Positions 1,388 to 25,700 of a stretch of 29,250 nucleotides of DNA are shown one piece after another; the first letter of the stretch is position 1, and the number at the start of each line of letters is the position of its first letter. The notes under the pieces are model-generated. The model did no database searches and had not been told where the DNA came from. It saw nothing but the letters and a program-made list of their open reading frames with translations. The stretch is from a virus. Both the position numbers and the translations under genes were made by a program. Location of the stretch: positions 1-29,250 of IMG/VR virus record IMGVR_UViG_3300028196_000058; one strand, 5' to 3'.

Positions 1388-1414
1388 TATATACATTTAG
1401 TTTTGTAACGTCAC

Positions 1415-2322: not shown

Positions 2323-2324
2323 AG

Positions 2325-2332
2325 TATAAATA
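2325..2332 (+). promoter_or_regulatory. T4-type late promoter for gp25-gp6-gp7-like
   Basis: Exact TATAAATA octamer, recognised in T4-like phages by the phage late sigma factor gp55 with gp33/gp45. It ends 22 bases before the gp25 ATG at 2355 and starts two bases after the stop of the 58-aa gene. Confidence 0.8.
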
Positions 2333-2354
2333 TAATTAAGAAAACTCTTTAACA

Positions 2355-2756: not shown

Positions 2757-2757
2757 T

Positions 2758-4687: not shown

Positions 4688-7600
4688 ATGATACAAACTG
4701 GAATTGAATCTAGAATCAAGATTCAGGAAATAATTTCTAATCAATTACCGGAATATGTTTTGGATGAAAGTCCAAAGGCATTAGATTTTTTAAAACAATA
4801 TTATATTTCTCAAGAGTATCAAGGTGGCCCTGTTGATATTGCAGAAAACCTTGACCAATATTTAAAAGTAGATAATTTAACTCCAGAAGTAGTTGTAGGA
4901 TTTACAACTTTATCCTCCGATATCGGATCTGATGATAACATAATTAGTGTTCCTAATACGAAAGGATTTCCTGAAAAATATGGACTGTTAAAGATTGATG
5001 ATGAAATTATCACATACACTGGAGTTACTACAAACACTTTTACTGGATGTATTCGTGGTTTTAGTGGAATTACTAGTTATCATCATGATCTAAATGCAGA
5101 AGAATTAGTATTTTCGGATACAACTGCTGATTCTCATACTTCAAATTCACCAGTAAACAATTTAAGTTCTTTATTTTTAAAAGAATTTTACAAAAAATTA
5201 AAATCTACATATACTCCCGGATTTGAGAATAGAGTTTTTAATTCTGAAGTAGATGCTGGAAACTTTATAAAAGAATCTAGATCATTTTACGAATCTAAAG
5301 GCACTAATGATTCTTTTAGAATACTATTCAATGTGTTATTTGGAGAAACTCCAAGAATAATTAATCTTGAGGAATATCTAATAAAACCATCAGATGCAAA
5401 ATTTATTAGAAAAGAAATATGTATTGCTGAAGCTATTAGTGGTGACCCTGCAAAAATAATCGGACAAACATTAACAAAATCGACAGATCCTACAACTAAT
5501 GCTTCCATATCTTCAGTTGAAATATTTACAAAAGATCAAAAGGTATATTATAAAGTAGGGTTATTTGTTGGATATGGTGATAATAGTAATGTTCAAGGTA
5601 ATTTTATAATTACTCCTAACTCAAAAGTTTTGGAGAATGTCAGTATTGGTGCTTCTATAATATCTGTAGACTCTACAATTGGATTTAATCAGACTGGAAT
5701 AGTATATTCTGGAGATAATACTATTACATACGTTGATAAGAGTATTAATCAGTTTTTGGGATGTTCTGGAGTTGTTGGTGTTATTACTGCCACAGATAAT
5801 ATTTTTTCAGATGATACATATTTTTCTTATGAAGATGGGGATATAACAAAAAAAGTCGTTCTTAGATTAACAGGAGTTCTTTCAAATTTTGTTCAAAAAT
5901 CAGATTCAATTTCTGTTAATGAAGGGCAAATCTTAGGAGTTAAGAGTATTGGGACTTTAATTGAAAATCCAGAACAAAATAAAACATATACAGAAATTTT
6001 TGCAAATTCTTGGATTTACAATACTAGTTCTTCAATAGAAATTGATAGTTTTGTTGGAGGATCAAATCCAACTGGTGTTATATTAAAAACTTCTGTGGAT
6101 AGATCTCAATTGAAAAAAGGTGATCGAGTAGAATTTATAGACGAGCAAACAAATAATGTAATATATCCTACAGATACCTCGGATATTCCATTCGTAAATG
6201 CCGATATTAGATCCAATTTAGTTTCTATAGGAAATTTAAGTTCCTTTTCCCCAAATGAGGGGCAATTTATAAAATTAAGAAGAAAAATTAATAAGGCAAA
6301 TAGTTCTTCTGTTGATTTTAAATATGAAAATAATAGTATTATTTCTGATGTTCAGAACATGTATGTTGATGATGATAATTTTGCATACATAGCATCAAAT
6401 TCACTTCCATCTTGGGGAAATGGACTTACAAATTCATATGCATATCAAATAAAAGAAAAAATTAAATCGGCATCAATCTCTTCTTCTGGAAGTATTATTG
6501 ATTTTGATATTGATACTGGTTTATATTCTACTATTTTCTTTGATACTCCTGTCCCATTTATAAGTGGAGAAAAGGTTCAATATACTCCATCCGGAGAACC
6601 TTTAAAAGGATTGGAAGAAGGTTCTTATTATATTAAGATCGTATCTAATAGTGACGGTAAAAAAATAAAACTTTATAGATCCCCTTCCTTTTTAGTTTCT
6701 GATGCAAATTCTATTCAATTCAAATCGACTACTTCAGAATTAGAAACTCATACGTTTACTTTATATTCTCAAAAATCGAGAATAATAAATCCTCAGAAAA
6801 TTTTAAAGAAATTTTCTTTAAATCCTAATATTAAAGATGGTATTGGAAAAGAAACAGTATCAGGATCAATTGGAATGTTGATTAATGGTGTCGAAATTTC
6901 AAATTATAAAACTTTCGATAAAGTTTATTATGGTCCAATAGAAAATGTTAAAGTTTTAAATGGTGGATTTAATTTTGATGTTATTAACACTCCATACATA
7001 GGTGTATCTACCAGTGCTGGAACAACATCTTTAGTCTTACCAGTTATAACTGGAACAGTAACAGATATTATTATAGATAAGCAAGATTTTGATATTAAAG
7101 AAGTATTGTCAATTAATATTACTGGTGGAAATGGATCTGGAGGATCGTTCGAACCAGTATTAAATAGAAGAAGAAGAGAAATATTATTTGACGCAAGAAC
7201 GACCACACAGGGTGGTGGTATAAGTACAACCACTAATCAATTAACATTTTTAAGTAATCACAATATTACGAATGGACAAAAAATTACCTATAGAAATAGT
7301 GGTAACCAAAGTGTTGTTATTGGTCTAGGATTATCTACATTATCTGACAATGCAAATTATTTTGCAAAAGTTGATAATAACACAACAATACAATTATTTA
7401 ATACTTTTGATGATTATTTAAATGGAAATAATCAAATTTCATTTGCAACTACTTCAATAAGTGGAATACATAAATTTTTGACAGAATTTTCAACAAATAC
7501 TGTTTCAGAAGTAAAAATTATAGAAGGTGGATCATTTACAAATAGAAAAGTCTTAGTCAAACCAACAGGAATTTCTACTTCTAAATATACGATAAACTTC

Positions 7601-10600
7601 AATAATCATGGATTTTCTAGTGGAGAAATTGTAGAGTATTCACCTGTTGTTGGATTGGGAACTACACAACCACAAACTATTTCAGGATTAACTACAACTA
7701 ATCAATATTTTATTTTAAGAAATGATGAAAAATCTTTCAGAGTATGCGATGCTGGTATTGGAGGAACAAATACTACAAATTATGATCAAAATAATTTTGT
7801 AAAATTTTCTTCTGTTGGAACTGGTTTTCAACAGTTTAAATATCCGGATATAAAAGCAAATATTGAGTTTACAACAGTTGGTATCGCAACATCAACGCAA
7901 ATTCAATCCATAACTGCAACACCAGTTGTTAAGGGATCTATTGAAGAAATTTATGTTTATGATCCAGGAACAGGATATGGGTCAAATATTTTAAATTTTG
8001 AAAAGAAACCTTCTTTTACAATTAAAAATGGTAGAGATGCTCAAATAGTTCCTATTATAGTTAATGGATCTATTAATGAAACAAACATACAATTTGGTGG
8101 ATATGAATATTTTTCTACTCCAGATTTGATAGTTTCAGATCCAACTAATGCGGGGAGTGGTGCTAAGTTAAGAGCTATAGTTACTAATGAAAGAATAACT
8201 GGAGTAAATATTGTTAATGCAGGAATAGGATATTCTACTTCCAGCACAATTAAAGTCATTCCTAGTGGCACTGGTGAAATTTTAGAGGCATCTATAAGAG
8301 AACTTACTAGTAACCAAGTCGAAAAATTAAATACACCAGAATATGAAATATTAAAAGATAACAATGATGAATTATCATACTCAGTAACTGGATATTTTAA
8401 AGATTTACAATCTTCATTTAATGATACCAATTCAACTTTGTCTAATATTATTGGATGGGCGTATGATGGAAATCCCATTTACGGACCATATTCAATTGTA
8501 GATCCAGAGAACATAAGTTCTGGTATTAAGACTATGACATCTGGTTATACAAAAAATGTATCCAATGTTTATGATAGACCATCAATTTCAGATTTTCCTT
8601 TAGGATTTTTTGTTGAAGATTATAGTTTTAATAATCAGAACGGCACTCTCGATAAAAATAATGGAATATTTGCAAAGACAAAAGATTTTCCAAATGGAGT
8701 ATATGCATACTATGCGTCTATAGATGCTATTACAGGAGAACCACAATTCCCATACTTTATTGGAAATTCTTTTAGATCAAATACGATTGATGAAAATGAA
8801 AGTTTAAATCAAAAATTTGATTTTGATAATTCATCTCTTTCTAGAAATACTTTAGGATATAAAATTCTAGAATCGAATGCTCATAATGATTTTATTATTG
8901 AAAACAATAAAATTGTAGACCAACAAATAAATGTTGAACATATTAGTGAAGGATCAATTTCTGGTATTTCGGTTATCAATAGTGGAGATGATTATAAAGT
9001 AAACGATTTATTGAATTTTAATAATGATGATACTAATGGTGGAGGAATTTATGCCAAGATTTCATCTTTAAAAGGGAGGAATGTTGATAGAATTGATACT
9101 TCATACGAAGTTTATAATGATGCGGTATTTACTTGGAGAGGAGATGATAAAGTAACTATAACAATCTCTCCTTTCCACACATTATTGGACAAAGATTATG
9201 TTTCAATATCTGGATTTAGCACTTCAAATCTTTCCATATTAAATGGATATTATAAAATTAATGTCCCATCTATTTCAAATGTAGGATTGACGACAGAAAT
9301 TGTATCGTCCGGAGCAGCTACAACAGAAATATATGTGACACAGATTCCATCGGGAGTTTCTGTTGGCAGTAGCATTGGAATTGGAACTGAAACTTTAGAA
9401 ATCTTAAATGTATATCAAGATAAAAATGTTTTTAGAGTAAATAGGAGTCTTCCCGGAACCGCACATACTATAGGAGTTGCAGTATCATTTAAACCAAAAA
9501 CACTTATAATTGATCAAAAGATAGATTATTTTGATTCTAAAGTGAATAATAAAGTTTACTTCAATCCACAAGAATCGGTTGGTTTTGGAACAGTAGCAGG
9601 AATTGGATATAATGTAACATATTCTTTTGGAGAAGAGGTGATTGTAGGATCTATTCCCACACAAAGAATTAGTATTAAAGATCATCCTTTTGAAACTAAT
9701 CAGAGACTTACATTTAACAGAAATGGTAATGCTAATATTTCTATTTCAACATCTCCCACAGGAACACCATTTAATTTACCAACAACAGTTTATGCTGTTA
9801 ATAAGTCTCCAAGTACCATTGGTATAAAAACTTCTTTGACTTCTGGCGAAGTCTTCTTTATATCGGGAGGAGATAATGTCGATGATTATTATTTTGACAC
9901 TCATAACACACAACAACTTGGAAAAGTTGAGAAAATTTTATCAACTGTTTCAATATCAACTTCTCATTATCATGGATTAATTAAAGGTGACTTAATTGCC
10001 ATGAATGTAGATCCAAATCTTTCTGTTGGTATTGGAACTTCTATAGCAGTAAGATTGAAGAGGAATTTATTCACAAATAATTTGCAGATTAATCCTATAG
10101 GATTTAACTCTTTAGGAATTAATACAATTTCAAATCAAATTAACATCGAAAATCATGGTCTAGAAACTGGAGATAAGGTATATTACGAATCTGATTCAAT
10201 ATCTTCTGGTTTAGATACTGGATCATATTTTGTATACAGGGTCAATTCAGATAATATTAAGTTAAGTCATAGTAATATTAATGCAAATAAAAATCCACCA
10301 GTAGTTGTAAGTATTGGTGGAACTGGAGGATCATCTCAAACTATATCTTTAATTAATCCAAGAATACAATCAGTATTAAATAATAATTTAGTATTTGATC
10401 TTACAGATTCTTCTTTAGAAGGATATTCATTTAAACTTTATTATGATAGAGATTTTAATAATGAGTTTATATCAACAGGTTCTACAGAAACTTTTAGTAT
10501 ATCTAGTGTTGGAACAATAGGAGTAACTAATAATGCTTCAATTACTATTAATAATAGTCCCGGATTACCTAAAAAACTTTATTACTCTTTAGAGAAATCT

Positions 10601-13600
10601 GGGTACATAAGTTCTTCTGATAAAGATGTAAACAATTTTTCAGAAATTTTATTCATTGATAGTGCATATAATAAAACTTATAATGTTTTTGGTATAGGAT
10701 CAACTACGTTCCAAATTTCTTTACAAGAATCTCCAGAAAAATTAACATACACTTCTTCTGAATGTGATAATTTAGAATATACAACAACTTCAATATCAGC
10801 ATCTGGTCCAGTAAATGATCTTAAACTTATATCTGGTGGATCTCAGTATAAAAAATTACCCACACTTTCAAATGTCAGCACAGTAAATGGAACAAATTTA
10901 TCAGTATCATTAAAATCTGATAATATTGGTTCAATTAAAGAAACTAGATCTATTAATGAAAAATTTGAATATTCTTCAGATAAGACTTTAAATCCAAGAG
11001 TTTTTATATCTCCAAAAATTATTTTAAAAGATTCAAATACAATTGGTATTGTAACTATAACTTCTGGTGGATCTGGATATACATCACCACCACAGATTAT
11101 CATTATTAATAATGATACGAGAACCGAAGTAAAAAATGGAGTGATTAGGACAGAAATAACTGGCAATTCAATTACTAATTTAATTATTGATGTTCTACCT
11201 AAAGGAATATCTGACCAATCGGCAGAACTTTTTACTGTTAATAACACTAATGGAATTAGTATTAAGCAAGTTAATTCAGAAGAAAATAGTGGAATTTTTA
11301 CGTGTATTCTTACAACACCATCTTTAGGATTTGATGAAGATGTTTTTTCTGTAAATGAAGAAGTTTTTATAGAAGGAATACAAAAATCTAGTACTACTGG
11401 AGATGGATTTAATTCCAGTGATTATGGATATAAATTTTTAAAAGTGGTAAAATATGAAAATAAATTGACACCTGGATTATTTGATGATCAAGTTACTATT
11501 AGTATTGCAGGATTGGGAACAAATGTAGGAGTTGCAAAAACAATTCAAGATTCATTTGGAAACATTATTGCCAAGAAAGATTATCCAACTTTTTCAGTTT
11601 CACTATCTACATCAGGATTTGAAATTGGAGAGACATTAATATCTAATGGTATTGAGAGAAATCTTAAAGTTACCGATTATGATAGTTCAGGATCACTTAA
11701 AGTGCTTGGAACATATAATCTTTCTGTTAATGAAACAATTGTCGGCAAATCTTCAGGAAATATTGCCACTATAGAATCTTTAATAAACTATGATGGAATT
11801 TTTGAAATAAAATTTTCTAATAGAAAAAATCAAGGTTGGGAAAAACAAACTGGAAAATTGAGTGAAGATCATCAAGTTCTTGCAGATAATGACTACTATC
11901 AAAGTCTTTCATATTCTATCAAGAGTAGACAGCAGTGGAATGATATTAGAACACCTGTCAATAGTTTAGTTCATTCAATTGGTATTAAAAATTTCGCAGA
12001 TACAGAAATTATTTCTGACGGAGACGAAAGAGTTGGAATTACGAGTTCTTCTAATGTAACGACGATTATAAGAGATTTTACTGATGAAAAGAGAGTTGAT
12101 ACTATCAACAATTTTGATTTTGTGAAAGATATAGATCTAGTAGAAGATAAATCTAAATTCTTAGAGTTAAAAAATAAAAAACTTACAAACTATCAACTAT
12201 CTATATCTAATATTGGATTGAGAATAGATGATATTAAAGAACAATTTTCCAACCTTGAAGATGATCCTTACCCATATACAAACATCACAAAAATTGATGA
12301 TGAAGATACTTACAATAACTATCTGTTTAAAGTTTCCGATACAAGTGGAAAAAATCAAGTTCAATTGACAAGTTTATTGTTTCTGAACAATTCAGTCAAT
12401 ACTAACAAAAATAATATTGCTATTTTAGAAAAACAATCCTTAGTTAATGTAGGATCTGGATTCACTACAATTGATGGGGAGCAATATGGAGATTTTTCAA
12501 TAGAAACTGATGAGTTTAATGATAAGTATATAAGATTTACTCCCAAAGACCCTTTCAATACTGAATATGATATTAAGTATATTGATAAAAAATTTAATAA
12601 TGAAAATATTGGAGTAGGTACAACAACAATAGGATTTATTGATATCACTTCTCGTAGTCAAGAAATTCTTACAGGGACTACAGATAATATTATTGGTGTC
12701 TCAACAGATAAATTTGTATCTTTCCATGTTAATGCACAAATTTATACAGAAGTTACTAAGGACATGAATTTTGTAGAGTTGTATGTAACTCATGATGGGA
12801 TAGATACAAATATTTCGGAATTCTATTTTGATACTGAAGATTTTTCAAGATCGTCTAATCTTTTGGGACATTTCGACTCCAACATAGATTCTGGATCATT
12901 TAATTTAAATTATACTAATGATACGGATGAAGATGTAATTGTCAAAACACATATAGTTGGATTTGGAACAAAAAACCTATCAGATTCTGTTGGAATTGGA
13001 ACATTTAGATACAGGTTACTAAATCAACCAGAAGGTAATGAACGATCTGCAATTTACGAATCTGGAGTATCTACAACCACTTCTGGTGTTTCTACTTCTT
13101 TCTTGAGATTGAATAAAAATAATTTTGATTCTGCAAGATCTTTAGTTGAAGTTAGTATTGGATCTACAAAATCAATCCATCAAGTCTTGATGGTTCAAGA
13201 TACTACTGATATTTACACTCAAGAATATTCATTACTGTCAATAGGAAGTACAAGTGGAGAATCTAGTCCACTAGGAGTAGGAACTTTTGGAGGAGAATAT
13301 TCTGGGGATGATATTTTAGTTAAGTTTTATCCAGATTCTAATTTTATTGGGGATATAAGAATTAATTCTTATAGTGAGTGTTTATACACCACAGTTGATT
13401 TTATCAATCAAGCACCAAATCTTATATATGGCAATTCTATTGAAACGGTAAATACTGGAGCATATTTGGCAATTAATGGAGATAGAATTAATAAAAAAGA
13501 TTTTGTATTGAGATCAAAAACTACTCCAATTTTTGCAAAATCATTTAACCCTTCAGATGCTAATATTCTCAATCTTTCAACAGGAGTATTTTCAATTAAT

Positions 13601-16600
13601 AATCATTTCTTCAGTAATGGTGAAGAATTAATATATACTCCAAAATCTACTTTTGTTGGTGTTGGATCAACTCCAATGATGTATCAAAACGGTTCTACTG
13701 TTGCAGAACTTCCTTCAAAAGTATTTGCTATTGTTGATAATGATAACAGTTTCTCAATATCAACAGTTAAATCGGGAACAGCTGTTATATTTACATCTGT
13801 TGGTGAAGGAAATTCTCACGAATTTTCAATGGCAAAGAGAAATGAAAAGGCTATTATTACTATTAATGATGTTGCACAATATCCAATTATTTTTGCTAAA
13901 GTTTCACAAACCTTATCTGGAAATGGTGGAAGTATTTCAGAATCCTCAACTATTTTCTCTTTGAGTGGTATTACAACCATATATCCTCTTGATATATTGA
14001 GAGTTGATGATGAATATATGAAAGTTGTTAATGTTGGATTGGGGACAACAAATATTGGACCTATTTCCAACTCCGGAACAGAAACTTTGGTTGAGGTTGA
14101 GAGAGGGTTTGTTGGATCATCTGGAACGTCCCACACAGATTCAACATTATCTAGAATTTATAAAGGATCTTATAATATTGTAGGTGACAAAATTTTCTTT
14201 ACACAATCACCTAGAGGTAATCCCAATATTATAAGAAAAGATAATAATCTAGTATTCCAAACATCAAAGTTTTCTGGTAGAGTATTCTTAAGAAAAAATT
14301 ATACTACAAATTCAGTTTATGATGACATTTCTAGAGAGTTTAATGGAATTGATAGAAAGTTCACTCTCACTATCGATGGAGAAAACACTGCAGGTATTGG
14401 GGTAAGTGGTGGAAATGGACTTGTATTTATTAATGGAATATTCCAAGCACCGACTACTATAAACAATCCATCAAACAACTTCTCTATTATTGAACAATCA
14501 ACACCCACGGGAATATCTTCTATTGTATTCAGTGGTATTAGAACAGAAATATCAGATGCAAGTAGTATTTTCATTTCCGATTCTGATGTAAATCAGAATC
14601 AAATTCCTAGAGGAGGTATTATTGTTTCTTTAGGATCTACCGAAGGAATTGGTTATGCACCTCTTGCTGGTGCGGCAGTAACTGCTGTCGTTGGTGCTGG
14701 AGGTTCAATTGTCTCTGCTGGACTCGGAATTACTGATGATAATGGTTCTGGATATAATGGTTTAGTTTCTATTGAAGTAAATGTAGTAGATATAGAATAT
14801 GATCATAAATTTGTAAGTTCCGGAATAAGTTCAATTACTGATGATACAGGTAGTACTCATACTGCAACAAACGCTGTTTATAATTCTGTGTCGGGAGATT
14901 TAACTTTAACTATTCTCAATCATGGGTTAACAACATCAAATACGATTGGTATTGCTACTGATGGACTAGTGTTTACTTGTTCTAAGAATAGTCATGCAAC
15001 AAATCATCCGTATCCAAGAGCAATTTCTAAAACCAAATTGAGAAGAGGGGAATCTGGGGGAGATCCTATTCATAACCAACAAGTATCAATTGCAGCAACT
15101 ACATTGAATACAGTTCAAATCAATGTAGGTCCTGGAGGAGGTGCTGGTGCAGGAGCAACAATTTCGGTTGCTTCTATAGGTGTTGGTGGAACTTTATCAT
15201 TTAATGTTGGTTCTGCCGGAACCAACTACGTAAATCCAGAAATATTTGTTTCCGAACCAACATACGAAAATCTTGAAGTTCAAGGTATTTCTAGAATTGG
15301 TGTTGGGGCGACAACTGATACTGGAATTGGATTGTTAGTAAGTATCGATGTTGATCCAAGTTCTGTAACTGGTATTGGATCAACTTATTTTGGAGTTAGT
15401 AATTACTTTATCTCAAGATCTGGATATTCATTTAGAAAAGGTGATGTATTTAAACCAGTTGGACTTGTTACTGCCAAAGGTTTAACATCTCCGATCTCAG
15501 AGTTTAAATTTACAGTATTGGAAACTTTCAGTGATAATTTCGGTTCATGGCAGTTTGGAGAATTAGATTATATTGATTCTATTAAAAATTATCAAGATGG
15601 AACAAGAATAAGATTTCCACTTTTTTATACTGGTGCATCACTGAGTTTTGAAACAAGTGAGGATTCTATAATAGAACTTCAAAATATTTTAATTGTAATT
15701 ATAAATGGAGTTATTCAAGAACCAGGTTCTTCTTATCAATTTACTGGCGGATCTACGTTCTCATTTAGTGTTCCGCCAAAACCTGAAGATAAAATTGATA
15801 TTTTCTTCTATAGAGGAACTAGGAATGAAGATGATTTACTTGTAAATAATATTATTCCAACACTAGAGAGAGGTGATGATATTAGAGTGTTTAGAAATGA
15901 TACTATTCCAGAAACTGTTACTCAAAATCAAAGAAAAATTTTTGATGTCTCTTTCGCGGATAAATTTGAGACAAATTTGTATGTGGATCAAGGTATTGAT
16001 GAAATTAATTCTAAACCTCTATCATGGACAAAACAAAAAACTGATAGGATAGTTAATGGGGCATTTGTTCCTAAGACAAGGCAATCCATAATTTCTCAAA
16101 TCTATCCAACTGCAAAAATTATTAAAGATATTACAACTTCGGATTCTAGTATTTTTGTTGATGATGTGAGTAATTTTAATTATGGTGTTTCATTAGAAGG
16201 ACCATATCAGAAAATGAAAGGTATTGTCGTTGATGGAAAAGTATCCACTGCTGCCAATATTACATCAACAATCAATACTGAAGGACTGGTAACTTCTTTA
16301 ACAGTAATAGATGGTGGAAGTGGTTACATTTACAATTTACCTAACTCGATTATTGCTAACGTAAATCCATCAGATGGTGTTAATAATGATCAATTTGGAA
16401 TTGCAGTAGCAGTAGGCAATGATAAGATCTATGTCGGTGCAGACTACAATACCACTCAATATGGAGCAGTATATTCTTATAATTTAGACGGAACTGTTCA
16501 AAATAAGATTACTGCTTCTGATACTAGTTCTGGTGCCCAATTTGGATGTTCAATAGCAGTAGGTAATGACAGGATTATTATTGGTGCTGAAGGTAAAAAT

Positions 16601-18136
16601 AGTAACCAAGGTGTAGTATATATCTTTAATCTTTCCGAAAATCAGTTAGGAATTATTACTGCTTCTGATGGTGCTGCTGGTGATTATTTTGGATACGCAG
16701 TCGCAGTAGGTAGCAATAAAATCTTTGTTGGTGCTCCTCATGATGATGACGATGGAACTTCATCTGGTGCAGTTTATGTTTACAACCTAGATGGAACTGG
16801 AGAAGTTAAGATTACTGCTTCTGATGCTGCTACTGGTGATAATTTTGGAGGATCAGTCGCAGTAGGTAGCAATGAGATTGTTGTTGGTGCTGCTGGTAGA
16901 GATGACAATGGAAATGGTAGTGGTGCAGTTTATGTTTACAACCTAGATGGAACTGGAGAAGTTAAGATTACTGCTTCTGATGCTGGCATTCTCCATCTCT
17001 TCGGAAGTTCAGTTGCTGTAGGATCTAATAAAATTATTGTTGGATCTCCTGGTGAAAGTACTAGTGGAACTTATTCTGGTTCAGTTTATGTTTATGACTT
17101 AGACGGAACTAATGAACTCAAGATTACTGCTTCTGATGCTGCTGCTGGTGATGAATTTGGAAAGTCAGTTGCTGTAGGATCTAATAAAATTATTGTTGGA
17201 GCTCCTGATGATGATGACAATGGAACTTCATCCGGATCAGTATACATTTATAATTTAGATGGAACTGGTGAAATTAAAATAAATGCCGGTGGTTCTGCAA
17301 ATGATGATGAATTTGGTTCTGCAGTAGCAGCAAGTAATACTAAAATAGTTGTTGGTGCTCCTGGAGGTTTTGGTGCAGATGTTACTGGTTTTGCTTACAT
17401 TTATAATAATGGTGATCAAAATATAGTTGACGTTAAATTCAGTTCTCCACCAATAATTGGTCCAGGAATTGGCACTACAGCAACAGCAACAGTATCTATA
17501 GGACCTGATGGATCACTAACAACACCGATAACAATTACAAATCCTGGTTTTGGATATACCGTCGAACCTAAAACAATTACACCTCTCCCAGATTCGAATA
17601 TTGAAACTGTGAATAATATTGAATTTATTAAAGGATTTTCTGGAATTATAACAGGAATTACAACTACTTCTGGATCTAGTGGACATTCATTAGCACTTAA
17701 ATTGTTCCTTAATACTGGAACAATAAATTTTGGAAATGATTTGAAGGTTGGGTATCCAATATTTGTTAAGAACACTATAATTGGATCTGGTGTTACATCT
17801 GTGGGGGATTCAAATGCCAATGTAGTTGGTATTGGAACTACCTTCTTAGATAATATTTACTATATTCATCAATTATCCCGTTTTGGTGATCATGTTGGTA
17901 TTGTTACTTGTAATATTGATTCTGGAACTGATATAACAGGTCTTTCTATAAGTGGAGATTATGTTGGTGAATTCTCTTGGGGATTATTCACATCAATTAC
18001 AAGATCCTCTACTCCAATTTCTATTGGTGTTACTGGAAAAACTGTAGATGTTGGATTATCAACATTTCCAACAATTCAGAGGAGGGGTGAAGGACTCAGA
18101 CTTACTGGATCACTTATAGAGAACTTAACTTCTTAA
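4688..18136 (+). CDS. Giant baseplate wedge protein, gp7-like N-terminus with modular beta-rich extension (4482 aa)
   Basis: One uninterrupted 4482-codon frame between gp6 and gp8, the position of T4 gp7 (1032 aa). Residues 1-230 look like the gp7 core: a helix near 17-40 (LPEYVLDESPKALDFLKQYY) and, near 197-222, SRSFYESKGTNDSFRILF, which resembles the C-terminal T4 gp7 segment with ..FYSTKG..SYKFLF (from memory). This part probably binds gp6. The rest is beta-rich, glycine- and serine-rich modules: an 'IDDEIITYTG...RG' module (first copy about 76-133), repeated 'NHG..xGexVxY' modules from about 857, a YHYH-like region (1256-1370), scattered GGSGY modules, a glycine run (about 3481-3495), a seven-blade FG-GAP propeller (3895-4247), and a C-terminus with PTIQRRGEGLRLTGSL, which I recall from cyanophage giant structural proteins. 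No signal peptide or membrane segment. It is probably a peripheral baseplate or fibre protein. The propeller looks like a late addition. The gp7 assignment rests on position and short similarity. Confidence 0.85.
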   Translation: MIQTGIESRIKIQEIISNQLPEYVLDESPKALDFLKQYYISQEYQGGPVDIAENLDQYLKVDNLTPEVVVGFTTLSSDIGSDDNIISVPNTKGFPEKYGLLKIDDEIITYTGVTTNTFTGCIRGFSGITSYHHDLNAEELVFSDTTADSHTSNSPVNNLSSLFLKEFYKKLKSTYTPGFENRVFNSEVDAGNFIKESRSFYESKGTNDSFRILFNVLFGETPRIINLEEYLIKPSDAKFIRKEICIAEAISGDPAKIIGQTLTKSTDPTTNASISSVEIFTKDQKVYYKVGLFVGYGDNSNVQGNFIITPNSKVLENVSIGASIISVDSTIGFNQTGIVYSGDNTITYVDKSINQFLGCSGVVGVITATDNIFSDDTYFSYEDGDITKKVVLRLTGVLSNFVQKSDSISVNEGQILGVKSIGTLIENPEQNKTYTEIFANSWIYNTSSSIEIDSFVGGSNPTGVILKTSVDRSQLKKGDRVEFIDEQTNNVIYPTDTSDIPFVNADIRSNLVSIGNLSSFSPNEGQFIKLRRKINKANSSSVDFKYENNSIISDVQNMYVDDDNFAYIASNSLPSWGNGLTNSYAYQIKEKIKSASISSSGSIIDFDIDTGLYSTIFFDTPVPFISGEKVQYTPSGEPLKGLEEGSYYIKIVSNSDGKKIKLYRSPSFLVSDANSIQFKSTTSELETHTFTLYSQKSRIINPQKILKKFSLNPNIKDGIGKETVSGSIGMLINGVEISNYKTFDKVYYGPIENVKVLNGGFNFDVINTPYIGVSTSAGTTSLVLPVITGTVTDIIIDKQDFDIKEVLSINITGGNGSGGSFEPVLNRRRREILFDARTTTQGGGISTTTNQLTFLSNHNITNGQKITYRNSGNQSVVIGLGLSTLSDNANYFAKVDNNTTIQLFNTFDDYLNGNNQISFATTSISGIHKFLTEFSTNTVSEVKIIEGGSFTNRKVLVKPTGISTSKYTINFNNHGFSSGEIVEYSPVVGLGTTQPQTISGLTTTNQYFILRNDEKSFRVCDAGIGGTNTTNYDQNNFVKFSSVGTGFQQFKYPDIKANIEFTTVGIATSTQIQSITATPVVKGSIEEIYVYDPGTGYGSNILNFEKKPSFTIKNGRDAQIVPIIVNGSINETNIQFGGYEYFSTPDLIVSDPTNAGSGAKLRAIVTNERITGVNIVNAGIGYSTSSTIKVIPSGTGEILEASIRELTSNQVEKLNTPEYEILKDNNDELSYSVTGYFKDLQSSFNDTNSTLSNIIGWAYDGNPIYGPYSIVDPENISSGIKTMTSGYTKNVSNVYDRPSISDFPLGFFVEDYSFNNQNGTLDKNNGIFAKTKDFPNGVYAYYASIDAITGEPQFPYFIGNSFRSNTIDENESLNQKFDFDNSSLSRNTLGYKILESNAHNDFIIENNKIVDQQINVEHISEGSISGISVINSGDDYKVNDLLNFNNDDTNGGGIYAKISSLKGRNVDRIDTSYEVYNDAVFTWRGDDKVTITISPFHTLLDKDYVSISGFSTSNLSILNGYYKINVPSISNVGLTTEIVSSGAATTEIYVTQIPSGVSVGSSIGIGTETLEILNVYQDKNVFRVNRSLPGTAHTIGVAVSFKPKTLIIDQKIDYFDSKVNNKVYFNPQESVGFGTVAGIGYNVTYSFGEEVIVGSIPTQRISIKDHPFETNQRLTFNRNGNANISISTSPTGTPFNLPTTVYAVNKSPSTIGIKTSLTSGEVFFISGGDNVDDYYFDTHNTQQLGKVEKILSTVSISTSHYHGLIKGDLIAMNVDPNLSVGIGTSIAVRLKRNLFTNNLQINPIGFNSLGINTISNQINIENHGLETGDKVYYESDSISSGLDTGSYFVYRVNSDNIKLSHSNINANKNPPVVVSIGGTGGSSQTISLINPRIQSVLNNNLVFDLTDSSLEGYSFKLYYDRDFNNEFISTGSTETFSISSVGTIGVTNNASITINNSPGLPKKLYYSLEKSGYISSSDKDVNNFSEILFIDSAYNKTYNVFGIGSTTFQISLQESPEKLTYTSSECDNLEYTTTSISASGPVNDLKLISGGSQYKKLPTLSNVSTVNGTNLSVSLKSDNIGSIKETRSINEKFEYSSDKTLNPRVFISPKIILKDSNTIGIVTITSGGSGYTSPPQIIIINNDTRTEVKNGVIRTEITGNSITNLIIDVLPKGISDQSAELFTVNNTNGISIKQVNSEENSGIFTCILTTPSLGFDEDVFSVNEEVFIEGIQKSSTTGDGFNSSDYGYKFLKVVKYENKLTPGLFDDQVTISIAGLGTNVGVAKTIQDSFGNIIAKKDYPTFSVSLSTSGFEIGETLISNGIERNLKVTDYDSSGSLKVLGTYNLSVNETIVGKSSGNIATIESLINYDGIFEIKFSNRKNQGWEKQTGKLSEDHQVLADNDYYQSLSYSIKSRQQWNDIRTPVNSLVHSIGIKNFADTEIISDGDERVGITSSSNVTTIIRDFTDEKRVDTINNFDFVKDIDLVEDKSKFLELKNKKLTNYQLSISNIGLRIDDIKEQFSNLEDDPYPYTNITKIDDEDTYNNYLFKVSDTSGKNQVQLTSLLFLNNSVNTNKNNIAILEKQSLVNVGSGFTTIDGEQYGDFSIETDEFNDKYIRFTPKDPFNTEYDIKYIDKKFNNENIGVGTTTIGFIDITSRSQEILTGTTDNIIGVSTDKFVSFHVNAQIYTEVTKDMNFVELYVTHDGIDTNISEFYFDTEDFSRSSNLLGHFDSNIDSGSFNLNYTNDTDEDVIVKTHIVGFGTKNLSDSVGIGTFRYRLLNQPEGNERSAIYESGVSTTTSGVSTSFLRLNKNNFDSARSLVEVSIGSTKSIHQVLMVQDTTDIYTQEYSLLSIGSTSGESSPLGVGTFGGEYSGDDILVKFYPDSNFIGDIRINSYSECLYTTVDFINQAPNLIYGNSIETVNTGAYLAINGDRINKKDFVLRSKTTPIFAKSFNPSDANILNLSTGVFSINNHFFSNGEELIYTPKSTFVGVGSTPMMYQNGSTVAELPSKVFAIVDNDNSFSISTVKSGTAVIFTSVGEGNSHEFSMAKRNEKAIITINDVAQYPIIFAKVSQTLSGNGGSISESSTIFSLSGITTIYPLDILRVDDEYMKVVNVGLGTTNIGPISNSGTETLVEVERGFVGSSGTSHTDSTLSRIYKGSYNIVGDKIFFTQSPRGNPNIIRKDNNLVFQTSKFSGRVFLRKNYTTNSVYDDISREFNGIDRKFTLTIDGENTAGIGVSGGNGLVFINGIFQAPTTINNPSNNFSIIEQSTPTGISSIVFSGIRTEISDASSIFISDSDVNQNQIPRGGIIVSLGSTEGIGYAPLAGAAVTAVVGAGGSIVSAGLGITDDNGSGYNGLVSIEVNVVDIEYDHKFVSSGISSITDDTGSTHTATNAVYNSVSGDLTLTILNHGLTTSNTIGIATDGLVFTCSKNSHATNHPYPRAISKTKLRRGESGGDPIHNQQVSIAATTLNTVQINVGPGGGAGAGATISVASIGVGGTLSFNVGSAGTNYVNPEIFVSEPTYENLEVQGISRIGVGATTDTGIGLLVSIDVDPSSVTGIGSTYFGVSNYFISRSGYSFRKGDVFKPVGLVTAKGLTSPISEFKFTVLETFSDNFGSWQFGELDYIDSIKNYQDGTRIRFPLFYTGASLSFETSEDSIIELQNILIVIINGVIQEPGSSYQFTGGSTFSFSVPPKPEDKIDIFFYRGTRNEDDLLVNNIIPTLERGDDIRVFRNDTIPETVTQNQRKIFDVSFADKFETNLYVDQGIDEINSKPLSWTKQKTDRIVNGAFVPKTRQSIISQIYPTAKIIKDITTSDSSIFVDDVSNFNYGVSLEGPYQKMKGIVVDGKVSTAANITSTINTEGLVTSLTVIDGGSGYIYNLPNSIIANVNPSDGVNNDQFGIAVAVGNDKIYVGADYNTTQYGAVYSYNLDGTVQNKITASDTSSGAQFGCSIAVGNDRIIIGAEGKNSNQGVVYIFNLSENQLGIITASDGAAGDYFGYAVAVGSNKIFVGAPHDDDDGTSSGAVYVYNLDGTGEVKITASDAATGDNFGGSVAVGSNEIVVGAAGRDDNGNGSGAVYVYNLDGTGEVKITASDAGILHLFGSSVAVGSNKIIVGSPGESTSGTYSGSVYVYDLDGTNELKITASDAAAGDEFGKSVAVGSNKIIVGAPDDDDNGTSSGSVYIYNLDGTGEIKINAGGSANDDEFGSAVAASNTKIVVGAPGGFGADVTGFAYIYNNGDQNIVDVKFSSPPIIGPGIGTTATATVSIGPDGSLTTPITITNPGFGYTVEPKTITPLPDSNIETVNNIEFIKGFSGIITGITTTSGSSGHSLALKLFLNTGTINFGNDLKVGYPIFVKNTIIGSGVTSVGDSNANVVGIGTTFLDNIYYIHQLSRFGDHVGIVTCNIDSGTDITGLSISGDYVGEFSWGLFTSITRSSTPISIGVTGKTVDVGLSTFPTIQRRGEGLRLTGSLIENLTS
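4913..5085 (+). repeat. 'Id-E-I-Y...RG' module, copy 1
   Basis: Encodes about residues 76-133 of the giant: a VPNTKGFP turn, GLLKIDDEIITYTG, then CIRGFSG and a histidine pair. Related copies in the same gene occur at about 5645-5790, 9325-9478 and 13965-14138, and in the DUF4815 gene at about 25970-26160. The module is a small beta unit common in marine phage structural proteins; its exact role is unknown. Confidence 0.55.
8440..8790 (+). other. YHYH-like domain region in the giant protein
   Basis: Encodes GWAYDGNPIYGPY (from residue 1256) and, about 80 residues later, FPNGVYAYYAS followed by FPYFIGNSFRS. These are the signatures of the YHYH-type domain found in marine phage structural proteins and some bacterial surface proteins. 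The namesake YHYH tetrad itself is not present here; only the DG-PIYG part and the downstream aromatic strand are clear. Confidence 0.6.
16765..16829 (+). repeat. 65-bp perfect direct repeat, copy A
   Basis: Identical to 16921-16985, offset by 156 bases (one propeller blade). It encodes the outer strand and linker GAVYVYNLDGTGEVKITASD between blades 3 and 4. Confidence 0.9.
16921..16985 (+). repeat. 65-bp perfect direct repeat, copy B
   Basis: Second copy of the sequence at 16765-16829, at the end of blade 4. A further 36-bp perfect repeat with the same 156-base offset lies at 17009-17044 and 17165-17200 (blades 5 and 6). Confidence 0.9.
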
Positions 18137-18182: not shown

Positions 18183-19760
18183 ATGTCCGCTATAGTAACA
18201 GATCAATTTAGAATTGCTAACGCTAATAATTTTGTAGATTCTGTGTTGAGTTCTGATAATAATTATTATGTTTTTTTGGGACTTTCAAATCCCGGAACAA
18301 CATCTACCCCTGTAGGATTTGGTAGGACTGCGACATGGGGAAATACTCCATCAACTCCACCAAGTCCTATTGATAATCAACAGTACTTAAGTCACTACAG
18401 GAATACTGCATTATTTGGTAAAAAATTAAATAGTTTGAATGTTAGAAGAATTGTAAAAAAAGTTAATTGGACTTCAAATACTCGTTATGAAATGTATCGT
18501 CACGATTATAGTGTTGGAAATTTAACACCAATTACTCAAAGTGCAAGACTTTATGACAGTAATTATTTTGTTGTTAACAGTGATTTTAAAGTTTACATAT
18601 GCATCTATAATGGATCTTATGGTAATATTGGAGGAACATCTAATGTAACTGGAAATACATCTCAAGATGAACCAACTTTTACAGATTTGGAATCATCTGC
18701 TGCAGGAATAAGTGGAGACGGATATATTTGGAAGTATTTGTTTACAATATCTCCAAGTGATATTATTAAATTTGATTCTACCGAATATATTGTTCTCCCT
18801 AGTGATTGGCCAACTTCAACCGATTTTCAAATTCAATCTGTAAGAGATTCTGGTGATTCTACAATAAACAGAAATCAAATAAAACATGTTTATATTGAGG
18901 ATGGGGGAGGTGGTGTATATACTGCAGGTACTTATAATATTAAAGGTGATGGATCAGGAGCAAAAGTAAATATAGAAGTTGATACATCCGGAACTATTAC
19001 TAAAACAACAGTTGTTTCTGGTGGTAGTGGATATACATTTGGAATTGTTGATTTTGGACATGCAACAACAGATACCATTTCAAATCCCGCAAAGTTAATT
19101 CCAATTATACCTCCATCTAGAGGTCATGGTTATAACATATATGAGGAATTAGGGTCAGATAAAGTTCTCGCATATTCTAGATTTGATGATTCTACAAAAG
19201 ATTTCCCAACAGATACAAAATTTTCTCAGGTTGGAATTATAAAAAATCCAGAAAGATATGAGTCTACAAGTCTTTACACAGCAAATGAATATTCATCATT
19301 AGGAGCAATTAAACTAACGTCAAATTTTAATGGCATTCCTACTATTGGAGATAAAATTGAACAAACCACGTCAAATGGAACTGCAAGAGGATATGTTGCA
19401 TCATATGATATTGAAACTAAAGTATTGAAATATTATCAAGACAGATCTCTAAATTTTGCAAATACTTTAAATCAAACCGATAGAAATGATGTTACTGATA
19501 AAGGAAATGTTATTAGTTTTGAATCATCATCAAATACAGTTTCTAATGTTGCATACGTAGCATCAATTGATACCACCTTCAGTGGTATTACAACTACAGT
19601 TGGATCTAAAGAAATTAATTTGGGAGTATCTTTTTCATTGGGTCTTGCCAGTCCGGAGATAAATAAGAATACCGGAGATGTTATTTACATTGATAATCGT
19701 TCTATCGTAACGAGAGACTCTAGACAAAAAGAAGACATCAAAATTATTTTGGAATTCTAA
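18183..19760 (+). CDS. gp8: Baseplate wedge subunit gp8
   Basis: 525 residues. The N-terminus (TDQFRIANANNFVDSVLS, then NNYYVFLGLSNP) and the segments SHYRNTALFGKKL, NVRRIVKKVNWTS and YEMYRHDYSVGN are the recognisable start of cyanophage gp8. T4 gp8 (334 aa) is a dimer that binds gp7 and gp10 in each wedge. The extra length here is at least partly a beta insertion at about residues 241-293, containing GDGSGAKVNIEV and VVSGGSGYTFG, the same GGSGY module seen in the neighbouring giant. The C-terminus has a run of short beta elements ending DIKIILEF. It has its own late promoter and is followed after six bases by the next giant gene. Start chosen because it directly follows the promoter and gives the family N-terminus. 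Confidence 0.9.
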   Translation: MSAIVTDQFRIANANNFVDSVLSSDNNYYVFLGLSNPGTTSTPVGFGRTATWGNTPSTPPSPIDNQQYLSHYRNTALFGKKLNSLNVRRIVKKVNWTSNTRYEMYRHDYSVGNLTPITQSARLYDSNYFVVNSDFKVYICIYNGSYGNIGGTSNVTGNTSQDEPTFTDLESSAAGISGDGYIWKYLFTISPSDIIKFDSTEYIVLPSDWPTSTDFQIQSVRDSGDSTINRNQIKHVYIEDGGGGVYTAGTYNIKGDGSGAKVNIEVDTSGTITKTTVVSGGSGYTFGIVDFGHATTDTISNPAKLIPIIPPSRGHGYNIYEELGSDKVLAYSRFDDSTKDFPTDTKFSQVGIIKNPERYESTSLYTANEYSSLGAIKLTSNFNGIPTIGDKIEQTTSNGTARGYVASYDIETKVLKYYQDRSLNFANTLNQTDRNDVTDKGNVISFESSSNTVSNVAYVASIDTTFSGITTTVGSKEINLGVSFSLGLASPEINKNTGDVIYIDNRSIVTRDSRQKEDIKIILEF

Positions 19761-19766: not shown

Positions 19767-22700
19767 ATGTCGCAAAAAACAAATTTAAATATCAATCCAT
19801 ATTATGATGATTTTGATTCGTCGAAAAACTTTTTAAAAGTTTTATTTAAACCAGGGTATCCTGTCCAAACTAGAGAATTAACAACTTTACAGTCTATACT
19901 TCAAAATCAAGTAGAAGATTTTGGAAGTCATATGTTTAAAGAAGGATCGATGGTGGTCCCTGGAAACATTGGTTATGATGGACAATTCTACTCCGTTAAG
20001 GTAAATACAACTCAATTTGGAGTTGACTTATCATTATACATTGAGAATTTTGTTGGAAAAACTATATCCGGACAATTTTCTGGAGTTACCGCTAAGATTC
20101 AGAAGGTAGTTTTTCCAGCAGAAAGTGATGAAGTAGATAATATAACTCTATATGTAAAATATTTAAAATCAAATGACGATTTTGAATTTTCACAATTTGT
20201 TGATGGGGAATTATTATCGGCAAATGAAAATATTGTTTATGGAAATACGACTATAGGTGCAGGATCACCTTTTGCATCTGCAATTAGTTTAAATTCAACT
20301 GCTATCGCATCTGCATCGTCAATCGGAGAAGGTATATATTTTATAAGAGGTTACTTTGTAAAAGTTCTAAAACAAACAATTATTTTAGATTATTATACAA
20401 ATACTCCATCATATAGGGTTGGATTGAAAATTGATGAATCTCTTATTAATGCAAAAGAAGACGAATCTTTATATGATAATGCAAAAGGATTTTCAAACTA
20501 TTCATCACCAGGAGCTGATAGATTAAAAATATCCTTATCACTTACAAAAAGACCTCTAACAGATAAGAATGACATCGATTTTGTAGAGTTGCTTAGAGTA
20601 AAGAATGGAAAAGTTAAAAAAATTACAACTAAAACTGAATATAATAGAATTCGTGATTATCTTGCAGAAAGAACTTTTGATGAATCTGGCAATTATACTA
20701 TAAATCAATTCGATTTGAATGTAGAAGAATCTTTAAACGATAGATTGGGTAGTGACGGAACTTTTTTCAGTAATGAAAGAACAGATCAAGGAAACACTCC
20801 ATCAGAAAGTTTGGCAGTATTAAAAATATCACCCGGAAAAGCATACGTACAAGGGTATGATATTGAAAAAATATCTACTTCTATTATAGATGTAGATAAA
20901 CCTAGAGATACTGCAGACATTAAGAATACTACAGTCCCATTTGAAATGGGAAATATACTGAGAGTTAATAATGTAACCGGAGTACCAAAAGTAAGAGAAA
21001 CAATCGCTCTTTATGCACAATTTGAATGTTCAGGAACTCAAATTGGAGAAGCAAGAGTATATTCATTTAGTTTAACTGATGCGGCATATTCCAATGCGAC
21101 AACTAGTTGGGATTTAAGATTATATGATATTCAGACGTATACGAGATTAACATTAAATCAATCTGTTTCTTCGGATGAAATAAAACAGTCGTTCTTTGTT
21201 AAAGGGAATAGTACTGGGTCAACAGGATTTGCTATAGCAAACGGGTCATCAGATCAAATATTTTTAAGACAAACTTCTGGAACTTTTGCAAAAGGTGAAA
21301 ATTTAATTATTAATGGAATACCATCTTCAAGATCTGTAACTGAAGTTCGTGCATATAATACTCAAAATATTAAGTCAGTAAAACAAGTAGCACCTTTTAG
21401 TCATAGTAATTTTGAAGCAGATTCAATTTTAGATAAATTTAATTTTCCAGGAGCAGTATCTGAATTAACAATCACTGCAACTGGGGGAGGTATCTCTACA
21501 GTAACTTCTCCAGGTAGAACTTTTGTTGGTATTAGAACTGATACTGTAATTAGATATCAACAATCTGGTTCATCATTAGAGTATTTTAATAGAATATCTA
21601 GTGTTGCAGCAGATGCATTATCATTTGAAATTTCTGCATTATCAAGTGTTGCTGGAGTATTTAATGGAGCACTTCCAACATCAGATATTCAAGTTAATGG
21701 ATTTTTGGGAGCACCAATAGTAAGAGGTTCGGGAAGTTTATTTGCTCCATTAGCAGAACCAAATACCTCTAGTATTGATCTTTCCAATTCTCAACTATTC
21801 ATTACTGAACAGTTAACTGGGAAAGACGTTGACGGTGCTGATAATACTATAACTATCAATACTAGTGAGATTAGTGGTATCACTGATATATCTTGGGTTA
21901 ATTTTGATCAAGAGAGATTTGGTATTGGATATAGTGGAGGAGGTATAGGAACTATTACCTCAGATTCCTTCAGTATTAGTGGAAATACAATAACTATTAG
22001 AGGTCTTGATAGTACTCTTTCAAATAATGATACTGTTGTTAATGTAACAGTAGTAAAAAATAATATTCAGAGTAAAACTAAATCTTATAGTAGAAGTAGA
22101 ATTTTATCTGTAAATGGATCAAAATTAAAAGAGTCTGGAAATAATGTCGCAACTTCTAAAAATGATGGGTTAACATATAATCAATATTATGGGTTGAGAA
22201 TTCAGGACGAAGAAATATCATTAAATTATCCAGATGTTGTGAAGGTTCTTTCAATTTATGAATCTTTAAATGAATCTAATCCGACTTTAGATATAGTTGA
22301 TTTTCCAGTTATATCGAATGTTGGAGCAAATGTATTAATTGGTGAAAATATTATAGGGACTAAAAGCAATACTGTAGCCAGAATTGTCACTAATAACACC
22401 ACAGTTCCTTCGTCAGGAAGTGCAAATAAATTGGGAATTGTTTATTTAAACGAAAATAAATTTTCTATAGGTGAAGCAGTAGTATTTGAGGAGTCTAAGA
22501 TTAATTCTCAAATTGATTCTATAACAAAAGGAAATTATAGTGATATAACCGAATCATACGTGTTAAATAGAGGACAGAAAAATCAATATTATGATTATTC
22601 AAGAATTGAGAGAAGAAAAAGTATTCATGAGCCATCTCGTCGTTTATTGATAGTTTTCGACCATTATACAGTTCCAACAACTGATTCTGGAGATGTATTT

Positions 22701-25700
22701 ACTGTCGATAGTTATGATGCAGAAAGATTTTCTAAAGATATTCCAAATATTGGAGGGTCTATTAGGGCAACAGATACTTTAGACTTTAGACCTAGAGTGG
22801 CAATCTTTGATCCTGCAGTAACAACTGATAGATCACCATTCGATTTTAATGCCAGAACTTCACCATTTAATACTTCTCCGTTAAGATTATTGGCACCAAA
22901 AGAAAATGCAATAGTTAGTCAAAGTTTTTATCTTCCTAGGATGGACAAAGTTTATTTGGACATTCTTGGCAATTTTGTTGTTGAAAAGGGGGTTTCCTCA
23001 AAAAATCCAAAACCACCCAGCAAAAGAGGTGATTTCATAGAACTTGCAACAATTGCATATCCTGCATATCTTTATAATACATCCAATGCGGATATTATCT
23101 TGACTGATAATAGAAGATATACTATGAGAGACATTGGTATTATTGAAGATAGAGTTGAAAATTTAGAAAAAGTAACGACATTATCTCTTCTCGAAATAAA
23201 TGCAAACACTTTGAGAATTCAAGATAATGAAGGTAGAGATAGATTTAAAAGTGGTTTCTTTGTGGATTCATTTTCTGATAATTCTAAGTTTGATACTTTC
23301 CTCTCAACAACTTTGGTCGATCAATCCACTAGAACTTTAAATCCAAACATTAGTAGAAATTCATTAGATTCCCTAATAGCAACTTTGGATGATTTATCAC
23401 CACAAGAACTAGATTTAAATGATGAAAATTTAATTTTATTAGATTCTTCGATTCAAAAAACTGGTCGAGCATTAACTCTTGCATATAATGAAGTTGATTG
23501 GCTAGAGCAACCATTTGCAACCAAAGTAGAAAATGTAAACCCTTTCAATATTGTCGTTTATAATGGGATAGTTCAATTACAACCAGAGGTTGATAGTTGG
23601 ACTAGAACAGTTCAATTGCAGGATGTAAATATAAACAATAGATTTACACAAGAAGTCAATCTTGTCAATAATTTAGATCTCACTCAAAATAGATCTTTCA
23701 ATCTTCCGTTAGCTCCAAGATTTAGAGGTGGAGGAGCTCCTGGTGGAGCATTCCAGGCTTTTGCTCAAGGACTCAGTGGAACTGAGAGAAGGAGTAGTAC
23801 TGCAAGTGGTAGTTTTGATACTGTAGATACATTTATTCGTAATGAGGTGGTCGGTACACCTGATGAAGAATTTATGAGATCTAGAAATGTTGAATTCAAT
23901 GCATCTAATCTCAAACCAAACACAAGATTCTATCAATTCTTGGACAGTAATAGTGGTGTTGATTTAGTTCCTAAACTAATTGAAATTTCTAACAATCGAG
24001 AACTTTCTGGAAATGGTGCTTCTGGTTCATTTAGAATTGGAGAAACTGTAATTGGAACCGTTAATGGTCAAGAGAGAATAAGATTTAGAGTTTGTACTCC
24101 AAATCATAAATTAGGACCTTTTAATTCACCAACATCATTTTATAATCAGAATCCATATGATCCGGAAAATCCTAATATATCCAGTAATTACAATTTAACA
24201 TCTAAAATTCTTAATGTAGATACCGCAGCACTCGCACAAAATTCTCAAGGGGACTTTTTCGGATATCTTGAAAGTGGGATGCAGTTGGTGGGACAAACTA
24301 GCCAAGCAATTGCATTTGTAAAAGATATTAGATTAATATCAGATAATTATGGCGATCTTATTGGATCTTTCTTTTTAAGAGATCCAAATGGAAGACCAAG
24401 ACCTTCAACGAGAATATCCACAGGAACAAAAACTTACAGACTTACATCAAGTTCTACAAATACTCCTGGATTGCCTGGAAGTAATTCCGTTTCTTTTGCT
24501 GAAACAAATTATACTGCGGTTGCAACCTTAATCAACTTCCAAGCTACGGTAACAACAAATACCACAACTACCACAATTAATAATACTATAAATGCAACTA
24601 TTGGAGGAACTGTTGAAGTAGCGTATGTCGATCCTCTTGCTCAAACCTTTACTGTTGGTGGAAATATTCAAGTTAAATCTGATATTGATACCGAAGATGA
24701 TGTTAATGGAGCATTTTTAACCTCTGTAGACATATACTTTGCATCTATTGATAGTGGTAATGCACCTGTTACAGTTCAAGTTAGATCTACATTACTAGGA
24801 ATTCCTACATTAGAAGTTATTGGCAATTCATCAGTAACTCTTAGACCTAGATCTATTGATGAAAATGGTGTTGAGACTCAACTTATTCAAACATCAGATA
24901 CTGGAGAAATTGCAACTAATGTTAAGTTTCCGGAACCTATTTTCTTGGCACCAGGAAGAGAATATGCGATTGTTCTACTTTCCGCTCAAAGTGATGAATA
25001 TGAAGTATGGACTGCAGGTATGGGAGAAAAAACTGTTAATACACAATCTCTTCCAGATGTTGATCAGGTAATCTATACTCAACAGTTTGCTCTTGGTTCA
25101 TTATTTAAATCTCAAAATGGTTCTATTTGGACAACAGATCAAAATCAAGACCTTAAATTTAAATTATACAAAGCAGAATTTACTGAAACAACAGGATCCG
25201 TATATTTTTACAATCCACCATTAAATGAAAGTAATGGATATATTCGAAGATTGAATAGTAGTCCAATTACTATTCTTCCCAAAACAGGAAAAATTGGTAT
25301 TGTTACAACAACAAATTCTAGTTTTATTGGTATTGTAACTGTGGGTAGAAAACTTGCAGGATCTAATAATGGAGGATCTGCTATTATTGTTGGACAGGGA
25401 AGTTCTGTTAGTAATGTTAGACTTACAGATGCAGGTGCAAATTATCCAGCAAGTGTTACTAATCAAATAGTAAGCACTTATAATATATCTGGAAAAGGTG
25501 AAAATCTTAAACTTCTTATTAATACTAATTCTGCAGGAACAATTACTGGTGTTGGGCACTCCACTCTCGATTTTGGAAGTGGATATCAAGTAGGAAATGT
25601 TATAGGAATTCAAACCTCAACAACATCTAAACAAACTGGTAGAGATGCTACAGTTACAATTACTGGAATATCAGGATTGAACACTTTATATCTTTCAAAT

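Follow-up and report, generated by a model that had tools for sequence, protein, structure and literature searches.

Propellers are known from several phage tail proteins. In the myophage phiKZ, the periphery of the baseplate bears a seven-bladed propeller, gp131C, which is described as a receptor binder or an enzyme, neither role being confirmed at the time of that paper, and the baseplate RBP of phi11 contains a five-bladed propeller whose cavity could take GlcNAc; neither is a gp7-type wedge protein, and in the sections cited here neither is described as FG-GAP (PMC4901313). A propeller in a phage baseplate thus has these two precedents, which qualifies the initial annotation of the locus studied here, made from the sequence alone. 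In phage SU10, a seven-bladed propeller forms the structural core of the tail nozzle, where it docks the needle and fibers and is described as no adhesin (PMC9509320). FG-GAP repeats occur in the prasinovirus MntV1, for which attachment was proposed, although this is a eukaryotic algal virus in which the FG-GAP genes are separate (PMC11467894). Titles and abstract openings of the open-licence literature yielded no report of FG-GAP propellers in phage baseplates.

Insertion of binding domains in a tail protein has been described for lactococcal skunaviruses, in which the distal tail protein of some phages only is an evolved Dit (PMC10688798, PMC6669499). The inserted carbohydrate-binding domains promote adsorption (PMC10688798), and cloning them in restored infection of EPS-bearing hosts (PMC10688798, PMC6669499); host binding was found for two CBMs from lactococcal phages (PMC6669499). 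In pelagimyophages and cyanomyophages, the host-recognition island has been placed between VrlC and the neck genes (PMC7029224).

Here, we analyze a DNA stretch of 29,250 nucleotides from an uncultured cyanophage-like virus (IMG/VR record IMGVR_UViG_3300028196_000058; hereafter the window). Our preferred reading, which we consider rather probable, is that its gp7 carries a self-contained integrin-alpha-like propeller on a loop, that the propeller was probably swapped in by recombination since the split from a close relative (L005), and that it most likely serves as an accessory adhesin. This reading builds on computed features: the fold as predicted, the placement in frame, relatives in which the site is empty, flanks that are mosaic, and the other gp7 insertions.

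The carrier gene and its surroundings

The gene order gp25-gp6-gp7-gp8 is present in the window, followed by a second giant gene:

2355-2756, + strand: gp25-like baseplate wedge subunit (phrog_261)
2758-4686, + strand: gp6-like baseplate wedge protein (PF21379, phrog_219)
4688-18136, + strand: gp7-like giant baseplate wedge protein, 4482 aa, carrier of the insert (phrog_2885; between gp6 and gp8)
18183-19760, + strand: gp8-like baseplate wedge protein (PF09215, phrog_438)
19767-27197, + strand: giant of 2476 aa at the VrlC/VriC position (phrog_358, a family without assigned function)

The reading frame of the gp7-like gene is uninterrupted across all 4482 codons. Its placement at the gp7 position of a baseplate, proposed at the outset, is upheld by the gene order and by the match to the baseplate wedge subunit family phrog_2885 (3362 bits over aa 2-3443). 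The gp7 of P-SSM2 (T4-GC 107) aligns with window gp7 5-3480 at 39% identity, and the named PHROG matches of the carrier are baseplate wedge and virion structural families, not Dit. A profile of the gp7 N-terminus (aa 1-800) matched 0 solved chains at E<=1, and T4 Gp7 is stated to be absent from the pelagimyophage and cyanomyophage groups, with VrlC in its place (PMC7029224); the wedge role of the carrier therefore rests on gene order and database naming. The name VrlC/VriC is borne by the gene after gp8 in S-SRM01, Sf-CH5, and S-SM2.

The gp7 stretch before the propeller matches 242 phage records, which are named for Synechococcus (172), Cyanophage (39), Prochlorococcus (24), and Marine (7), and because of these names the host of the window phage is likely a picocyanobacterium. 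The record of S-SKS1 (L131) shows two baseplate CDS at the gp7 position and leaves the stretches before and between them unannotated; the annotation may have broken up a single giant gene.

Extent and predicted fold of the propeller

The seven FG-GAP repeats initially noticed in gp7 are borne out by Pfam, in which FG-GAP_2 (PF14312) matches seven stretches (E 2.5e-74, 245.7 bits against a cut-off of 23), and by a blade HMM built here, which finds seven units at gp7 aa 3895-4257. The family FG-GAP (PF01839) reaches 19 bits on window gp7, under its cut-off of 22.1, and FG-GAP_3 (PF13517) has no match at E <= 0.001 in the window record. The boundaries of the insert were set by eye against relatives with an empty site and by DNA identity. 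The blade limits listed below are approximate and follow repeat spacing and DSSP:

16328-17422, + strand: inserted seven-bladed FG-GAP_2 propeller, aa 3881-4245 (FG-GAP_2, AlphaFold2 model)
16349-16363, + strand: N-terminal strand, aa 3888-3892, which opens the series of 28 predicted strands and is taken as blade 7's fourth (pairing inferred)
16370-16516, + strand: blade 1
16517-16663, + strand: blade 2
16664-16819, + strand: blade 3, with an acidic 2-3 loop at 16742-16753
16820-16975, + strand: blade 4, with an acidic 2-3 loop at 16901-16906
16976-17131, + strand: blade 5
17132-17287, + strand: blade 6, with an acidic 2-3 loop at 17207-17218
17288-17407, + strand: blade 7

The unit is thus slightly larger than the 16370-17428 first given for it, a range that omits the first strand and ends two residues into the scaffold.

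The fold was modeled from an alignment (A3) of the window with 50 metagenomic propellers, which are the 50 of 76 loci that passed a redundancy and length filter. The AlphaFold2 model (pLDDT 90.4, pTM 0.90) has 28 strands, or seven times four, and this prediction agrees with the closed seven-blade propeller expected from the repeats. Three strands belong to blade 7 itself, and the strand at aa 3888-3892 could give the fourth. Because this N-terminal strand would complete the last blade, as the strand order suggests, the ring should be closed by it and the two ends of the propeller should lie close together. The propeller of the phi11 RBP is likewise closed by an N-terminal strand (PMC4901313).

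Integrin alpha heads are the top solved structures in a Foldseek search (E 4.8e-17), and the best solved match by VIA-align is the integrin head 3v4v_C (Z 43.4; 348 residues superposed with an rmsd of 2.7 A and 21% identity). Among solved sequences, a profile reaches integrin alpha-E (E 8.2e-6); with the single propeller sequence, the best match among solved sequences has only E 0.099. None of the PHROGs families matches the propeller well (best E 0.00018), and 4gbf is absent among the 50 matches listed for the model, which excludes nothing. Window gp7 is therefore predicted to hold a complete integrin-type seven-bladed propeller. In the model it shares with the integrin alpha propeller the seven four-strand blades, the FG...GA motifs, and a near-complete structural overlap, but the identity is about 20%, the integrin calcium-cage motif is missing, and the carrier is a phage baseplate protein.

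Acidic loops and loop variability

Calcium-binding loops had been proposed for blades 3, 4, and 6. Acidic stretches are indeed present there (aa 4019-4022, 4072-4073, and 4174-4177), all of them in the loops between strands 2 and 3. In integrins, the calcium cage D-x-D/N-x-D/N-G-x-x-D sits in the 1-2 loops of several blades. The 1-2 loops of the window propeller are short turns of the VGSNK kind, and none of the 51 aligned propellers, the window's included, contains the cage motif; judged by motif and position, the acidic loops are not calcium sites of the integrin type. The ligand face of integrins is made of 2-3 and 4-1 loops. In the 51-propeller alignment, these two loop classes have mean entropies of 2.19 and 2.10 bits, compared with 1.79 for the 1-2 loops, 1.27 for the 3-4 loops, and 1.31 for the strands, all being raw means without a null, with loop limits set by regular expressions.

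The site is empty in relatives

A close relative, L005, aligns with the window DNA at 92.0% identity over 10,779 bp up to position 16263 and at 93.1% over 9,896 bp from position 17531, and it has no propeller and a short loop at the site. When the L005 tail is modeled, the site falls in a loop of eight residues (47-54) that is flanked by strands 39-46 and 55-60; the block has a pLDDT of 94-95, and the whole model a pLDDT of 81.5 and a pTM of 0.65. The empty scaffold compared with solved folds gave a best Z of 6.9, which is not decisive, and the region around the insertion loop was barely covered. The tail alignment (A6) comprises 37 of 116 candidate tails.

The initial annotation had allowed that nearly all related phages might carry the repeats at this place, and the survey of relatives speaks otherwise. 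The 294 aa before the propeller matched 46 relatives, and no FG pattern occurs in those of their tails that were available, three of these being cut by the contig end. The blade HMM found blades in 0 of 204 unselected gp7 ORFs with a stop, among the matches listed. These ORFs were not dereplicated and amount to 185 distinct tails, one of which (L221) has just 24 residues. They are the loci reaching a stop among 211 that came from the relatives scan, two wider scans (the best 80 of at least 600 stretches kept in each), and seven isolate records; the seven without a stop are outside the count. One of these seven, L267, has two blades elsewhere in gp7 and then the contig end, and it is not counted as the same site because its blades lie at another place. 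The same HMM found seven blades in the window and in L091, L101, and L123, which were picked for carrying propellers and so are outside the 211. Of 214 loci, 141 cover upstream gp7 by 1000 aa or more and 101 by 2500 aa or more, so that far-upstream propellers could be missed. Judged by the relatives sampled, the propeller is an addition to gp7.

An addition of this kind could be a stray, functionless domain, neutral or transient, that a loop tolerates. The allele with a propeller at aa 3881-4245 is known from one contig (records very near the window may be absent from the databases searched), none of the 204 ORFs shares it, and the same gp7 region takes other inserts, all of which would suit such a stray. 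However, the frame is open, FG is kept in all seven blades and GA in six (blade 5 has GS), the fold is predicted with high confidence, and related propellers recur in gp7 and in other proteins, which suggests a benefit. We regard a functionless insertion as quite improbable compared with an accessory adhesin.

Mosaic flanks and origin of the proposed cassette

The DNA without alignment to L005 is wider than the propeller:

16264-17530, + strand: stretch delimited by identity breaks, containing the propeller and a flanking GGxGY repeat, the proposed exchanged cassette

In protein, the outer stretches are 85% (aa 3575-3845) and 91% (aa 4283-4482) identical to L005. The left flank of the propeller (aa 3846-3881) is 49% identical to L005 and 67% to L014, and the right flank (aa 4246-4282) is 59% identical to L005, 72% to L020, and 76% to L227. 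Because both flanks are closer to other gp7s than to L005, the cassette looks like the product of recombination between gp7 alleles and not like the clean insertion of a bare domain.

The sharp breaks of L005 identity at both sides, together with an arrangement found in one contig only, could also come from an assembly chimera, in which the gp7 gene has been falsely fused with a propeller gene from a different phage. We hold this to be highly improbable. The reading frame is kept at both joins, both sides match the same relative, and other contigs show the same kind of insertion; since even the diverged flanks consist of gp7 repeats, a chimera would call for two joins within gp7, both in frame. 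Third-position GC is also the same in the insert and in the rest of gp7 (0.134 and 0.134). Recombination between gp7 alleles is the reading that we retain.

A foreign origin was looked for in composition and set aside. The total GC of the insert (0.374 vs 0.303 for gp7) is above the highest of 76 gp7 blocks (0.364), and its codon use is about 1.6 SD below the gp7 block mean, but with third-position GC equal we read the total GC as amino-acid content, and composition therefore gives no clear sign of transfer. Peptide patterns of the window propeller, used as a single query, found no IMG/VR relative. No close donor was found, since the nearest propellers found are only about 50-59% identical, the highest value being 59% in the best segment among the best 80 of 212 relatives. 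A bacterial source was rejected: 4 of 87 genome stretches encode a relative, and three of these, in Verrucomicrobia, are 32-34% identical. The fourth relative filed as bacterial, L295 (PAPS01000031.1, a Saprospirales MAG), has 37,816 bp, the same length as the IMG/VR viral contig L100, and is perhaps a virus binned with a bacterium.

Propellers at other sites and in other genes

The initial impression of a lone oddity has to be given up. A profile search of IMG/VR finds 212 stretches that encode propeller relatives, the best 80 of which give 76 loci, and 21 phage records match the propeller query. Among the best 80, four close gp7 orthologues carry propellers at three other sites, given here in coordinates of window gp7 without its propeller:

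about 1518-1574: propeller site of L091; L096 has an identical start and then reaches the contig end
about 3343-3376: propeller site of L101
about 4059-4073: propeller site of L123

Also among the best 80, 17 metagenomic giants are collinear with window gp7 in two to eight pieces (23-45% identity per piece) and have one or two propellers each, with 5 to 7 detected blades. Kinship with gp7 is weakest for L099, L112, L114, L117, and L127, because each of these aligns in no more than two pieces; in L127, the cut end bears an additional lone blade. Two seven-blade sets each are seen in L099, L103, L107, L109-L112, L114, and L117. The 7022-aa giant of S-MbCM6 is of this gp7-family type: it is collinear with window gp7 in ten pieces and bears a propeller, but identity is 24-36% per piece, and the propeller falls between gp7 positions 3480 and 3587 and so not at 3880. 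It is labeled gp8 in its record.

Since propellers occupy different gp7 sites, independent capture is suggested, although not proved by the tree. With 51 propellers in the tree, 4 label changes are required by the five rows borne on gp7, and shuffles do as well in 64 of 500 cases; well-supported branches force only 2 changes, and the window row has no supported sister. The tree thus does not separate captures by gp7 from chance.

Related propellers also stand alone. The best match to a phage record (52%) is a separate S-TIM5 protein of 407 aa (H6WG31), annotated as virion structural, which has its own gene and is no gp7 insertion. This protein comes first in a viral fold library, in which several giant-virus proteins are also among the matches. 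Among the 76 loci (from the best 80 of 212), a complete ORF of at most 450 aa holds the propeller in 28, and in 21 a gp13-like neck gene lies downstream of the propeller gene; for pelagimyophages, the host recognition cluster has been described in this region (PMC7029224). In the genome of the Sinorhizobium phage Phosso (PV764938.1), there are 14 separate matches to the propeller query.

These distributions bear on whether the propeller might be a structural spacer or clamp, between wedges or between the baseplate and fibers, without a host ligand. Such a role would suit a wedge protein, as gp7 is by PHROG and position, in a family whose lengths vary greatly through many inserts of unassigned role, and the SU10 nozzle propeller is an example of one with a structural task (PMC9509320). 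On the other hand, L005 manages without a propeller despite being 92-93% identical, related propellers occur as separate genes, and a single structural contact fits poorly with propellers at several gp7 sites. A clamp is therefore unlikely in our judgment, and an accessory adhesin remains our preferred reading.

Proposed role and other gp7 domains

In the mechanism that we favor, recombination between gp7 alleles after the split from L005 probably brought the propeller cassette in, and the propeller would be displayed from the gp7 loop, exposed on the virion, with the wedge core undisturbed, which is feasible because its two ends should lie close together. The face formed by the 2-3 and 4-1 loops may then contact a host surface molecule, either glycan or protein, during adsorption. 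Binding to the host or to a glycan, as first proposed, is something that we infer. Because the propeller is missing in a relative 92-93% identical around it, it has the look of an exchangeable module for attachment, which could contribute to the phage's choice of cells and so might affect host range. By analogy, the best reading is that the gp7 propeller would work like an evolved Dit without being a member: that system concerns the Dit protein of siphophages and carbohydrate-binding domains, and no FG-GAP propeller is mentioned in the sections cited (PMC10688798, PMC6669499). The window and L005, alike on both sides except for the cassette, offer a natural test of a gp7 adhesion-module role.

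The propeller may be one of several exchangeable gp7 modules, which would include other propellers and Reelin-type and CBM-like domains. More tentatively, gp7 of marine T4-like phages may be a modular adhesin rack whose loops acquire and exchange such domains through recombination. The baseplate would then bear a second host-recognition system in addition to the tail fibers, one that differs between phages more than 90% identical in the surrounding DNA. If gp7, as the largest baseplate protein, does carry swappable adhesion domains as well, host-range prediction must read gp7 too.

Several domains are candidates for such modules. In window gp7, aa 1245-1346 match the YHYH domain (8420-8725; 76.8 bits, cut-off 25), and YHYH, concanavalin, and other possible binding domains have been noted in unidentified structural proteins of the pelagimyophage and cyanomyophage groups (PMC7029224). 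The gp7 tail of L273 contains Reelin_subrepeat-B (L273:11303-11797; 53.1 bits, cut-off 27), and that of L091 a weak, similar match (L091:17180-17740; 18.5 bits, under the cut-off of 27). In L277, an insert of 180 aa (L277:8543-9082) has a weak match to CBM_4_9 (E 0.032, 15 bits, under the cut-off of 25.9) and follows a GxGY motif resembling that before the window propeller. Window gp7 has one further domain with a patchy distribution:

14783-15172, + strand: extra repeat domain of about 115 aa in gp7 (chain gaps at gp7 3366-3495; repeat matches to 3373-3480)

This domain is absent in L002, L003, and others, is present in L004 and L005, and is repeated in other gp7s and in giants, with four matches in L101.
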